Shown: in pieces, positions 2,080-10,961 of the stretch
Numbering within the stretch: position 1 is the stretch's first letter
Layout of the letters: every line of letters begins with the position of its first letter
Virus record (IMG/VR): IMGVR_UViG_3300001450_000408
Span: 1-21,172 of that record
Length of the DNA stretch: 21,172 nt
From: a virus
Strand: one strand, 5' to 3'
Notes under the pieces: model-generated
What the model saw: the letters and a program-made list of their open reading frames with translations, nothing else
What the model was told of the DNA's origin: nothing
Database searches by the model: none
Translations under genes and position numbers: made by a program

Positions 2080-2144
2080 CAAATCACGTTTAGGGCCAGC
2101 ATTCCGGTGTAAAGCAGCGAGGCAACAAATAAAGCGGTCATCAT
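2079..2144 (-). CDS. 21-residue hydrophobic membrane peptide
   Basis: A tiny frame lies exactly between two coupled genes. Its ATG (2144) overlaps the TGA of the ribbon-helix-helix gene (ATGATGA junction) and its TGA (2081-2079) overlaps the methyltransferase ATG. A second in-frame ATG directly follows the first. The product begins MMTALFVASLLYTG and is nearly all hydrophobic, long enough for one membrane helix. A purine-rich GAGGCCGAG stretch just upstream may act as a weak ribosome site. It may be a real membrane peptide, or a translational relay that carries ribosomes from the upstream gene to the methyltransferase. The fit at both ends argues against chance, but no protein evidence exists here. 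Confidence 0.45.
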   Translation of the reverse strand: MMTALFVASLLYTGMLALNVI

Positions 2145-2308
2145 TTTTTCTCGGCCTCTTGCAAGGGTTTTATCGCTTGTCCCGTCATTTTTTCCAGTAG
2201 GAACGTAAACTGTCCTGAAATTGTTCTGTGCTCCTCGGTCGCGAGGCCCTTGAGCACCTTATAGCTCTCAATCGGTATCACGACCGACTTCCATTTCTCA
2301 GGGTTCAT
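2141..2308 (-). CDS. Small ribbon-helix-helix (CopG/Arc-like) DNA-binding protein
   Basis: The protein has 55 residues. The start at 2308 has an excellent ribosome site, AAGGA eight bases upstream, partly inside the end of the polymerase gene. WKSVVIPIESYKVLKGLATE gives the short strand and first helix, and HRTISGQFTFLLEKMTG gives the second helix, of a ribbon-helix-helix fold. Such proteins bind DNA as dimers and often repress their own operon or serve as antitoxins. No toxin-like gene is recognisable next to it; its only close neighbours are a 21-residue hydrophobic peptide and the methyltransferase. A regulator of middle or late phage genes is a reasonable inference. The N-terminal MNPEKW and C-terminal QEAEKK tails carry no known motif. 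Confidence 0.65.
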   Translation of the reverse strand: MNPEKWKSVVIPIESYKVLKGLATEEHRTISGQFTFLLEKMTGQAIKPLQEAEKK

Positions 2309-4756: not shown

Positions 4757-6276
4757 ATGGCCCACCCTCGTTGTGAGTCTTCCGGCATCTTTAGAACAAG
4801 GTTTTCCTTGGCCCGGGTCACCCCAACGTACAACACACGGTGAGCGTCGTCGGGGTTCCTCTCCATCTCCTTTAGAGCCATTCCCGAAAGGTCTGTGAAC
4901 AGCAGGACGTTGTCTGCCTCGCCGCCTTTTGCGCCGTGGATCGTGGACAGCTTTATCTTAGGCTTCTCGAAAATGTTTATGCCTCTGTTGAGCAGCGCCG
5001 AAGCGTATGCCCGGTCTTCGTCTGCGATGCGGTCTAGGGCCACGTCCCATGTGTCGTCGGGTGTCTCCAGGCCAAAGTGCTGGCGCAGGACGGCCTTTGT
5101 AAACAGGTCGTTTTGGTCTGCCCCGGAAATCATCTTCTTAGCGCCGCGCTTTAGACGGCCTGCTCCGCTCGACATATGGTCGTATAGGTTGATGGCTTCC
5201 TTTACCGATATCTCATGTCCGGGGCTTTCTTGTAGGTGGTTCCAAGAACTGATGGCGTTCCGGACAGACTTTTTGAGGGAGGGCGATCCTTTGCGCTCGA
5301 AGTATTGCCCGCTGGAAGTCAGGCGGGCGGCAAGGTCATCCAGCATGTAGTTGGCCTGCGCTAGGACGAGCCACTCGTCGTTTCCGAACGTGACGGTGTT
5401 GGCGTCATAAGTGCGCTCCACGCTGCCTTCCTCCTGCCTCGGGGACCAGACCTTTTTCTGTCTGTTCTGTATCCTCCTTACTACAGAATCCGCTATCTTG
5501 TGAACGCTGCGGGGAACCCTGTAGGATTGCGACAAGACCTCCGAGCCTCCCGGCAACCCGACGAAGTGGTTTATGTCGGCCCCCGCCCAACGATAGATCC
5601 CTTGGTCATCGTCTCCTGCTACGAACATCCGGTCGCTGCGGTCGCTCAAATGGTGGGCTACTTTCCATTGGAGGGGGGTTAGGTCCTGAGCTTCGTCAAG
5701 AAAAACCACTTTGAGAAAGGGTATGTTCCCGGGCCGGTCGGATAGCTCCACCATCATGTCAGTGAAGTCTTTGAGGCCATGGGACACTTTAAACCGGTCG
5801 TACTCTTTGTATAGATGGTCAAACTCATAGTACGGGATCGACAGTTCGACAGCATTGTAGGCGTACTGAGGACCCAGCAGGGAGTTACGGGCTAGGTCAA
5901 TTGCTCGCATGATGGGGCTGTTGCTCTTCATCAGAACAAAGCCGTCGTCGGCTATATGCTCGGCACCTTTTGAGGACAGGTCCACCCCCGTCTCCTTGCC
6001 GAAAGTTTTCAGTCCTTTGTCCCCAAGCACGTCTGCCCCAACCATCCCAAGGGCTTTGAAGGCAAGACTATGCAACGTCCGGAAGTACTGGAAATCCTTC
6101 TCTGGATCCAAACCAAACCTTGCAACCGCGCGGTCCCGTGCTTCGTGGGCCGCTTTCCGTGTAAAAGCAAAGTATCCGATTTCATTAGGTGACATCCCCC
6201 CTGCAAGAAGTTCGTCCACCTGATTCAGCAGCGTGGTCGTCTTCCCTGTCCCCGGTGGGCCAAAGTACCTAAACAT
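4753..6276 (-). CDS. UvrD/Rep-like superfamily 1 DNA helicase
   Basis: The protein has 507 residues. It is an ATP-driven 3'-5' DNA helicase by family, probably opening duplex DNA for the phage polymerase or aiding recombination and repair. Motifs in order: Walker A GPPGTGKTT (6-14), motif Ia FAFTRKAAHEA (37-47), FRTLHSLAFKAL (65-76), Walker B VVFLDEAQD (190-198), motif III VAGDDDQGIYRWAGA (219-233), motif IV LSQSYRVP (248-255), motif V STIHGAKGGEADNVLL (444-459) and motif VI VLYVGVTRAKENL (481-493). It is shorter than UvrD/Rep (about 670-720 residues), and most of the loss is in the 1B/2B insertions. An AGAGGAG site lies seven bases before the ATG, which follows the regulator's TAG directly. 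Its TGA overlaps the small membrane peptide. Confidence 0.93.
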   Translation of the reverse strand: MFRYFGPPGTGKTTTLLNQVDELLAGGMSPNEIGYFAFTRKAAHEARDRAVARFGLDPEKDFQYFRTLHSLAFKALGMVGADVLGDKGLKTFGKETGVDLSSKGAEHIADDGFVLMKSNSPIMRAIDLARNSLLGPQYAYNAVELSIPYYEFDHLYKEYDRFKVSHGLKDFTDMMVELSDRPGNIPFLKVVFLDEAQDLTPLQWKVAHHLSDRSDRMFVAGDDDQGIYRWAGADINHFVGLPGGSEVLSQSYRVPRSVHKIADSVVRRIQNRQKKVWSPRQEEGSVERTYDANTVTFGNDEWLVLAQANYMLDDLAARLTSSGQYFERKGSPSLKKSVRNAISSWNHLQESPGHEISVKEAINLYDHMSSGAGRLKRGAKKMISGADQNDLFTKAVLRQHFGLETPDDTWDVALDRIADEDRAYASALLNRGINIFEKPKIKLSTIHGAKGGEADNVLLFTDLSGMALKEMERNPDDAHRVLYVGVTRAKENLVLKMPEDSQRGWAI

Positions 6277-6495
6277 CTAACCGCTCCTCTTAAAAACATC
6301 TATTTCATATCCAAGTGCCTCCAAGATCAGCTCCACCTTGTATATGGAGAGCTGCCTGGAAGCGCCTATGTTCTCGTATTCAGCTATGGTGCGCTGTGCC
6401 ATGTCTGCCTTTATGGCTAGGTTCTTCTGCGTTAGTCCGGCCTCCACCCTCAACTCCTTTAGAAGCAGGCTCCAATTAGTTTGTTCGCAGGTCAA
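6277..6495 (-). CDS. XRE-family helix-turn-helix regulator
   Basis: The protein has 72 residues. LLKELRVEAGLTQKNLAIKA, then DMAQRTIAEYENIG and LSIYKVELILEALGYEIDVF, form the five-helix Cro/C1 (HTH_3) fold, with recognition helix around residues 32-42. The only start consistent with the whole domain is a TTG at 6495 that overlaps the primase TGA (TTGA). The GAGGAGG stretch at the end of the primase gene can serve as a slightly distant ribosome site. A weak start and coupling to the primase would keep the amount low and tied to replication gene expression. It contains only the DNA-binding domain. It is the best candidate in the window to bind the inverted repeat at 9458-9472, though nothing proves that pairing. 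Confidence 0.82.
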   Translation of the reverse strand: MTCEQTNWSLLLKELRVEAGLTQKNLAIKADMAQRTIAEYENIGASRQLSIYKVELILEALGYEIDVFKRSG

Positions 6496-8854: not shown

Positions 8855-9430
8855 TTACTTGCTCCTCTTGATTGTTGCACGTTGTGAGATAAAGGCCCCA
8901 AATAGATCGAGCGGGATGGGGTCCCCCGCTTCTACCCGCTCCCGAAGCCAACCCCGTAAGGTCGAAGACTCGACCTTTTCCGCTTGGCTGGGAACGAATC
9001 CTTGTGCGTCGCAGAGTCCTACAAACTCTTTGGCAGTTTCGTCTTCGCCGCGACCAAAAGAAACGGACACAAGATTCTTTACGAGATCACCATGGTCGTT
9101 GTCTCTCAACCACTGGAACGCTTCTTCCTTGCGGTCCTTTGGAATGCTTGCGGCGTAAATAGGCTTGATGGCGATTTCGGACCCGTCGGTTAGAGTGAAC
9201 TTTTGTAAGCCCATAACTTCCAACGCTTCCGGAAGCCGCTCGTCCGTTATCTTAAGGAGAGCGGCTTTAGTTTCCTTCATAATCTTCTCTGTGTCGGCCA
9301 GCTTGTGCTCAAGGGCTGCGGCTTCCGTAGCCAGACGCGAAACAGCGTCGAGCTTACCTTCTTGTAGCTGGTCAATTTTGTTTGAGGTTGCTCCAGAGTC
9401 TGAAGCCATTTCTGCTAGTAAGTCATTCAT
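8855..9430 (-). CDS. Unknown replication-block protein with N-terminal coiled coil
   Basis: The protein has 191 residues from the ATG at 9430, with AGGAG eight bases upstream. An ATG at 9454 lacks a ribosome site and is rejected. Residues about 20-62 (SRLATEAAALEHKLADTEKI and after) form a likely coiled coil. The rest is a compact domain with LPEALEVMGLQKFTLTDG, PKDRKEEAFQWLRDNDHGDL and PIPLDLFGAFISQRATIKR. I recall similar phage proteins, generally called hypothetical, next to ssDNA-binding genes. It is the first gene of the leftward replication operon, about 45 bases from the predicted start of transcription, and so should be strongly expressed. Its end carries the ribosome site of the SSB-like gene, so the two are probably made together and may work together. 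Confidence 0.68.
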   Translation of the reverse strand: MNDLLAEMASDSGATSNKIDQLQEGKLDAVSRLATEAAALEHKLADTEKIMKETKAALLKITDERLPEALEVMGLQKFTLTDGSEIAIKPIYAASIPKDRKEEAFQWLRDNDHGDLVKNLVSVSFGRGEDETAKEFVGLCDAQGFVPSQAEKVESSTLRGWLRERVEAGDPIPLDLFGAFISQRATIKRSK

Positions 9431-9457
9431 GTTCTTTGCTCCTGTTTCATTCATCGG

Positions 9458-9472
9458 CGGTTGACTTAACCG
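9458..9472. promoter_or_regulatory. Inverted repeat, candidate operator in the divergent promoter region
   Basis: CGGTT (9458-9462) and AACCG (9468-9472) form a perfect 5-bp inverted repeat around GACTT. It covers the -35 box of the rightward promoter and falls within the first transcribed bases of the leftward one, so one bound dimer could influence both. Five-base arms can occur by chance, and the binding protein is unknown. The XRE regulator encoded at 6277-6495 is a candidate. Confidence 0.4.
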
Positions 9473-9489
9473 TCAGGAATCGTTATATG
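9461..9489 (+). promoter_or_regulatory. Sigma70-like promoter for the SNF2 helicase gene
   Basis: TTGACT (9461-9466) matches five of six -35 bases. After a 17-base spacer comes TATATG (9484-9489), a fair -10. The predicted transcript starts near 9496 and has about 26 untranslated bases before the helicase ATG at 9522. This is the only rightward transcription unit in the window. Confidence 0.6.
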
Positions 9490-9510
9490 GGTATAGATGA
9501 GAGGATGCAA
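9482..9510 (-). promoter_or_regulatory. Sigma70-like promoter for the leftward replication operon
   Basis: On the minus strand TTGCAT (9510-9505), a 17-base spacer, and TATAAC (9487-9482) form a strong sigma70-type promoter. The -10 matches TATAAT in five of six positions. Transcription would start near 9475, about 45 bases before the ATG at 9430. Its -10 box overlaps the -10 of the opposite promoter almost completely, so polymerase cannot sit on both at once. Confidence 0.65.
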
Positions 9511-9521
9511 GAGAAATCTTT

Positions 9522-10961
9522 ATGAGTGAATTTGTTTTCAAGACCCGACCTTACGATCATCAGCTCGAAGCTTTTACAGCTAGCGCTGAGAAGACGAACT
9601 TTGCCCTTCTCATGGACATGGGCACAGGGAAGACGAAGGTGGACATCGATTCCATGGGTCATTGCTTCGAGAAGGGTCTGATAGACTTTGCCATCATCGT
9701 AGCACCCAAGGGTGTCATTCGGAACTGGGTACCTGAGATAGCTGCACATTTACCCGAGCGGATCGAAAGAGAGATAGTCATCTGGAAGCCCGGACTGACT
9801 AAGGCTCATCGCAAGGAGCTGATGGACCTTCACGAACACACCGGGAAGATGAAGTTCTTACTAATGAACATAGAGGCGTTTTCCACCAAGAAGGGCGTGG
9901 ATATTGCGGACTTCTTTGTAAAGAAGTTTAAGGTCTTTATGACGGTAGACGAATCGACCACCATCAAAAACCGGCAGGCAAAGCGGACCAAGGCTGTGTG
10001 CGCCGTGGGCCGTGGTGCGGTAATGCGGCGCATCCTCACAGGCTCCCCGGTTACCAAGTCGCCCATGGACCTCTTTAGCCAGATGGATTTCCTGAGCCCG
10101 GACATACTGGGCTTCAAAAGTTACTACGCCTTTCAGAGCCGGTACGCCGTTGTGCAGCGCCGCAGCATGGGATCGCACTCCTTTAACCAGATATTGGGGT
10201 TCCAGAGACTAGATGAGCTTACGGAGAAGTTGAACGACCACTCCTTCCGCGTTCGCAAGGAGGACTGTCTGGATCTGCCCGACAAAGTTTACATGAGGCG
10301 GGCGGTGGAGCTTACGTCAGAGCAGTCGGATGCCTACGGTCAGATGAAGACCCTAGCGCTGGCTCGGTTGGACAATGGTGACTTAGCCACCACGCAGAAC
10401 GTATTGACGCAGATCATGCGTCTACAACAGATATGTCTGGGCAGCTTGACGGACGACGACGGCACGGTGCATCCGCTTAAATCCAACCGACAGGATGAAC
10501 TTTTAAATATATGTGACGAGATACAGGGCAAGGCGATTATATGGGCGACCTGGACGCAGGATATCCGCGCTATCGCCGAGGCCCTGCGCGACCGCTTTAG
10601 CGTACAAGCGGTTGCAACGCTCCACGGTGAGACCCCTGATTCTGAGCGCCAAGAAATCGTGGAAACTTTCCAAGATCGGCAATCGGAGTTACGTTTCATC
10701 GTGGGGCACCCTAAAACAGGCGGTTACGGTCTGACCCTCACGGCTGCAAACACTGTGATCTACTACAGCAACAGCTATGATCTGGAGCTACGGCTTCAGT
10801 CCGAAGACCGTGCCCACCGCATTGGACAGGAGAACAAGGTGACGTATATCGACCTGATCTCCCCCAAGACTATTGACGAGAAGATTGTGGATGCCTTGCG
10901 AAACAAGATTAAAATAGCGGACCTTGTATTGGGCGAGGACGCTAGGGATTGGCTAAGTTAG
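9522..10961 (+). CDS. SNF2-family (superfamily 2) DNA helicase/translocase
   Basis: The protein has 479 residues and by family is an ATP-driven double-stranded DNA translocase. The N-terminal lobe has a Q-motif-like YDHQ (11-14), Walker A LLMDMGTGKTK (29-39), IIVAPKGVIRNWVPEI (58-73, motif Ia region), Walker B VDEST (142-146) and motif III LTGSP (172-176). The C-terminal lobe has GKAIIWATWTQ, GYGLTLTAANTVIYYSNSYD (motif V) and the arginine-finger motif EDRAHRIGQ (428-436), characteristic of SNF2/HepA proteins. There is no fused nuclease or chromatin domain. Phage homologues are commonly found near primase and polymerase genes, and the exact role (fork remodelling, recombination, stripping host proteins) is unknown. 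The ATG has only a weak AAGAGA site. It is the sole plus-strand gene, and its end overlaps the lysin gene by nine bases. Confidence 0.93.
   Translation: MSEFVFKTRPYDHQLEAFTASAEKTNFALLMDMGTGKTKVDIDSMGHCFEKGLIDFAIIVAPKGVIRNWVPEIAAHLPERIEREIVIWKPGLTKAHRKELMDLHEHTGKMKFLLMNIEAFSTKKGVDIADFFVKKFKVFMTVDESTTIKNRQAKRTKAVCAVGRGAVMRRILTGSPVTKSPMDLFSQMDFLSPDILGFKSYYAFQSRYAVVQRRSMGSHSFNQILGFQRLDELTEKLNDHSFRVRKEDCLDLPDKVYMRRAVELTSEQSDAYGQMKTLALARLDNGDLATTQNVLTQIMRLQQICLGSLTDDDGTVHPLKSNRQDELLNICDEIQGKAIIWATWTQDIRAIAEALRDRFSVQAVATLHGETPDSERQEIVETFQDRQSELRFIVGHPKTGGYGLTLTAANTVIYYSNSYDLELRLQSEDRAHRIGQENKVTYIDLISPKTIDEKIVDALRNKIKIADLVLGEDARDWLS

Follow-up and report, generated by a model that had tools for sequence, protein, structure and literature searches.

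A putative bidirectional promoter with a conserved dyad between a replication operon and an SNF2-type helicase gene of an uncultured phage

Introduction

How are two oppositely oriented genes served by the 91 bp that separate them? The question arises at positions 9431-9521 of the window, the whole stretch of DNA analysed here, a piece of 21,172 bases from an uncultured phage. The leftward block encodes, in order, a DUF7307/phrog_2378 protein, a Pam3 gp34-like protein, a primase, an XRE protein, a UvrD helicase, a DNA polymerase and a small ribbon-helix-helix (RHH) protein. An SNF2-type helicase gene lies on the other side of the gap. Among annotated phages, no DNA-level match to the window was found. 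Based on sequence comparison among relatives, we suggest that the element is probably a bidirectional promoter of the host sigma70 type, which carries a single dyad operator.

Results

Two promoters and an inverted repeat had been placed in the gap by an initial annotation, and all boxes are found at the positions it assigned to them, with 17-base spacers in both directions (Table 1). The two -10 boxes have the four bases 9484-9487 in common, as expected of bidirectional promoters. The term face-to-face, used at first for this arrangement, is a misnomer because the transcripts diverge. Both -35 boxes had been rated as good, which fails for the leftward TTGCAT with its 3/6 matches to the E. coli consensus. 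Over both boxes, the match to this consensus is 9/12 for the rightward promoter and 8/12 for the leftward one. A stock promoter scanner lists neither promoter because both -10 boxes lack a T at -7.

Judged by motif matches alone, the promoter pair is unremarkable and such matches are weak evidence. Overlapping pairs of comparable quality number four in the window and average 3.1 across 60 shuffled versions of it. Shuffling the 91-bp gap produced an overlapping pair in 77 of 3000 shuffles. The element rises above chance because it is conserved in relatives.

Table 1. Coordinates of the promoter element and of the genes discussed, in window positions.
Feature	Position	Strand	Remark
Rightward -35 TTGACT	9461..9466	+	TTGAC in 71/71 protein-found relatives
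Rightward -10 TATATG, without T at -7	9484..9489	+	17-nt spacer; 0-1 changes per site in window clade
Leftward -10 TATAAC	9482..9487	-	TATAA core conserved
Leftward -35 TTGCAT, CTTGC core 9511-9507	9505..9510	-	Exactly 17 nt from TATAAC; noncoding in window
Leftward transcription start, predicted	9475	-	7 nt from -10; inferred from box positions
Rightward transcription start, predicted	9496	+	7 nt from -10; inferred from box positions
Putative operator, pseudo-palindromic, 19 bp, GGCGGTT-gactt-AACCGTC	9456..9474		Dyad centre 9465; over rightward -35
Conserved leader block GCAAGAGAAATCTT, ahead of helicase start	9507..9520	+	Weak ribosome-binding site AAGAG on rightward transcript
AGGAG	9443-9439	-	8 nt ahead of leftward start 9430
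First gene of leftward replication operon, DUF7307 / phrog_2378, Pam3 gp33-like	8855..9430	-	Start ATG 9430
SNF2-type helicase	9522..10961	+	Sole evident rightward gene of window
XRE/HTH_3 protein	6277..6495	-	Inside leftward operon; weighed as regulator, unsupported
Small RHH protein	2141..2308	-	After DNA polymerase; possible regulator, candidate

Relatives were gathered through similarity of the helicase protein, blind to the gap, and 71 of them (~72-91% identity) came with upstream sequence. All 71 carry TTGAC followed 38-42 bases on by (G/A)CAAGA, around a TATA core, and 69 of the 71 match the strict spacing. On the helicase tree of the window clade, the operator shows a mean of 1.7 changes per site, the TATA block 1.9 and the leftward -35 1.5, compared with 8.9 in the spacer adjoining the operator and 7.8 in the other spacer. 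Positions 9449-9455 are variable too (6.4 changes per site). Zero change counts at TTGAC and CAAGA arise partly by construction because the search pattern behind the per-site counts demanded both motifs; the protein-found set provides the unbiased check. Across 49 distinct sites, the distance from TATAT to CAAGA underwent no length change on the tree and the rightward spacer underwent 4, compared with 16 in the left flank and 14 in the leader to the helicase. One lineage, L195, with the core TGTATAGG, is ambiguous in this spacing comparison. The rightward TTGACT-17-TATATG and the 19-bp dyad are almost invariant among relatives. Alignment of the same region in related phages, a check that had been proposed at the outset, finds the overlapping divergent promoters conserved together with the inverted repeat over the rightward -35.

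We favour the existence of a leftward promoter despite its weak boxes, given the fixed geometry, the conserved T at 9483 and the lack of any other conserved leftward promoter candidate in the 91-bp gap. Position 9483 lies outside the rightward hexamer, has changed three times and fits a TATAA on the minus strand. An A at 9482 would complete a leftward TATAAT, and this position has undergone ~12 changes among G, C and T without showing A in any of 42 sites. With a -35 of 3/6 and a -10 that never carries T at -7, the leftward promoter may be weak or factor-dependent.

The conserved leader block aligns with the helicase start ATGCAAGAY of a sister clade (L072, L069, L071, L087 and relatives). In the window clade, the helicase starts ~17 nt further downstream and CAAGA is retained, including in several lineages where the old ATG has given way to ATT, AAA, AGG, CGG, ATA or GTG. 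Coding accounts for the conservation of the block in the sister clade and not in the window clade, where the ATG is often lost. GCAAGA could partly be kept for helicase translation, through start codons in the sister clade and a weak Shine-Dalgarno (SD) sequence here. Tentatively, and with some doubt, we propose that the sister-clade helicase codons ATG CAA GAY (Met-Gln-Asp) double as the opposite-strand -35 of the replication operon, and that the aligned block survives in the window clade only as a promoter box. Promoter element and start codon would then be tied together in the sister clade and separate in the window clade. A conserved upstream open reading frame overlapping the helicase start (MQEKSL followed by a stop) was rejected as a candidate, as neither its ATG nor its frame is preserved in relatives.

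The inverted repeat CGGTT-5-AACCG (9458-9472) can be extended outward to GRCGGTT-N5-AACCGYC, and the resulting dyad sits just inside the predicted leftward transcript start. A shared inverted repeat over the rightward -35, as proposed at first, is supported by its conservation and by the covariation of its arms in two lineages. Both arms changed together around an unchanged centre in L205 (GATGGTT/AACCATC) and L204 (GGTAG/CTACC). One arm is altered in L200, the dyad is partly or wholly broken in L206, L188 and L210, and L195 has rebuilt it at a different centre. The window contains a single exact CGGTT-N5-AACCG, as does each of 20 related contigs, with no further exact operator copies in these contigs. 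The joint change of both arms suits a dimeric DNA-binding regulator.

Two proteins of the leftward block had been put forward as regulators. The XRE gene is missing from three lineages that keep the operator exactly (L077/L211, L103 with its relative L080, and L149), and in L068 the operator is unchanged beside an XRE that is strongly altered. XRE is not required for operator maintenance, since the operators of the three XRE-less lineages are intact. The gene is also missing in L188/L189, where one dyad arm is broken. The co-occurrence and co-change of operator and protein expected under XRE/Cro-like autoregulation were not found. The suggestion of XRE as the regulator is unsupported, and an essential role of the operon's XRE in dyad regulation appears unlikely. 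XRE as the sole operator-binding protein was rejected on the strength of the three lineages. As a separate observation on this part of the operon, at least four lineages (L077, L103, L149, L188) lack the small XRE gene, whose absence brings primase and UvrD helicase next to each other; L080 has ~530 bp extra between these two genes (~5264-5794) compared with its close relative L103.

The RHH protein is found in every related locus reaching its position and is absent in DSL-LC04. Lineages whose dyad is altered have the identical KWKSVV strand too. The presence of RHH at all related loci that reach it fits the proposal of RHH as the regulator, and its strand does not track changes in the dyad; overall, the data are compatible with RHH as a candidate regulator and no more. 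A tiny RHH protein with an invariant KWKSVV strand was also noted directly 3' of the DNA polymerase in L261-L264.

Discussion

Host RNA polymerase might bind the one TATA core facing either way. Facing right, together with TTGACT, it would transcribe the SNF2 helicase gene. Facing left, together with (C)TTGCAT, it would transcribe the replication operon with its genes for DUF7307, a gp34-like protein, primase, UvrD helicase and DNA polymerase. A regulator recognising the 19-bp dyad as a dimer would cover the rightward -35 as well as ~20 bases at the beginning of the leftward transcript. From this position, such a regulator could shut down or gate both units together. The sequence, its conservation, the joint arm changes and the fixed spacing are shown; firing of both promoters, a repressor role of the dyad and mutual exclusion of polymerases are inferred. 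The early claim that only one polymerase binds at a time agrees with the geometry, which makes simultaneous binding unlikely, and with the steric exclusion stated generally for bidirectional promoters (PMC12825309). The accompanying idea of a natural switch fares less well. The five bidirectional promoters assayed in E. coli were all reported to be basally too weak to compete, and one direction suppressed the other only if strongly activated (PMC12825309). We consider joint control of both directions by a dyad regulator likelier than a switch. An either-or switch in the strict sense is possible and is not the default, because the studied promoters show suppression only under strong activation of one direction.

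The gap might instead hold a one-way promoter, with only the rightward promoter and the operator being real. The leader block GCAAGAGAAATCTT would then be a translation-initiation leader that goes back to an ancestral start codon, with the leftward operon driven from elsewhere (e.g., from inside the helicase gene). The poor leftward -35, the missing T at -7 and the alignment of the block with the sister-clade start codon all suit this explanation, and AAGAG, located 8 nt ahead of the ATG, can act as a weak SD sequence. A leader needs no fixed distance to a -10 box, yet this distance has never changed in length compared with 14 changes in the region up to the helicase start. CAAGA moreover stays where the ATG was lost, and the conserved T9483 is left without explanation. 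We regard a one-way promoter as unlikely.

The inverted repeat could also form an RNA hairpin where the leftward transcript begins, controlling stability or translation, rather than serve as a DNA operator. The leftward leader opens with a CGGUU-5-AACCG stem-loop, and the joint changes of the arms would preserve an RNA stem too. Compared with shuffles, however, the leader has no folding advantage in the window (z -0.06) or in L204 (z 0.80), and only a modest one in L205 (z -1.89). The arms preserve sequence and not pairing alone, the 9457/9473 mismatch (C-A in the leftward RNA) persists at almost every site, and the repeat overlies a -35. Searches for a known RNA family at the site returned none beyond chance-level matches, and the hairpin is in our view very improbable. 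We give hardly any credence to an element that is mainly a replication origin or replication signal, with promoter-like motifs as by-products. The location between replication operon and helicase would fit an origin, and the records of cultured relatives were opened near the junction. An origin is at odds with the lack of repeated binding sites, each contig having a single exact dyad, with a GC skew that tracks gene direction without an origin-like turn, and with conserved parts that fit the -35/-10 geometry exactly.

The bidirectional promoter that we favour resembles alphaproteobacterial sigma70 promoters, in the majority of which T at -7 is absent (PMC8407463), in its TTG-type -35, 17-bp spacer and TATA core without a T at -7 in either direction. 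Of 35 window-clade sites, 34 have G at the rightward -7, and all 42 sites compared have C, G or A at the leftward -7. The host of the window phage may be an alphaproteobacterium; a host of this kind is known only for a distant relative, HTVC027P. This cultured phage infects Pelagibacter, has 44% helicase identity and resembles the window phage in how the genes near the junction are ordered. HTVC027P was reported to depend on host RNA polymerase throughout (PMC12753301). The main text of the published HTVC027P transcriptome does not give an expression class for the helicase. The host listing of DSL-LC04 is Gammaproteobacteria, and a genome collection searched for a relative as a clue to the host contained none.

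Putative overlapping promoters recur at the helicase junction, though not in all relatives. Among lineages at <=60% identity with the same leftward gene family, L042/L060 have an overlapping pair of TTGACT-17-TATGTT versus TTGACT-17-TATATA, and L055 has TTGACT-17-TATAAA versus TTGACA-17-TACAAA. No clear promoter pair was found at the junction of L213 and DSL-LC04. A near-symmetric promoter pair TTGACA...TATATA...TGTCAA was observed at the helicase junction of L228, L238, L243 and L252, likewise lineages at <=60% identity; their leftward neighbour is another gene, identified as phrog_5888 in the lineages tested.

Divergent phage promoters under operator control are known from PR/PRM of lambda. 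The element described here likewise combines divergent promoters with operator DNA in common. It differs in that the -10 boxes themselves would overlap, in having a single dyad, and in serving two replication-type modules rather than lysis/lysogeny genes. Bidirectional promoters are reported to be common in bacteria and, by the authors' own account, hardly studied (Warman, Grainger, Wade; PMC12825309). They share overlapping -10 boxes with inherent symmetry with the putative phage element, which would also have divergent transcription and occupancy by one polymerase at a time in common with them, and a regulator site can set their direction. Their transcription starts are preferably 18 bp apart, and also 10 and 23 bp, with small variations allowed (PMC12825309); the distance predicted here from box positions is ~21 bp. 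The phage setting and the conservation of a putative operator at the shared core set the present element apart. A fast-diversifying phage group appears to have frozen the geometry of both promoters and one operator within ~60 bp, while the surroundings change freely. The relatives provide a natural alignment for testing what each direction requires, how specific the regulator is and whether polymerases compete, and the element could be useful as a bidirectional promoter with strong evolutionary evidence for both directions. Two-way promoters as such are already known, and what this putative element adds is an example unusually well supported by comparison across relatives.
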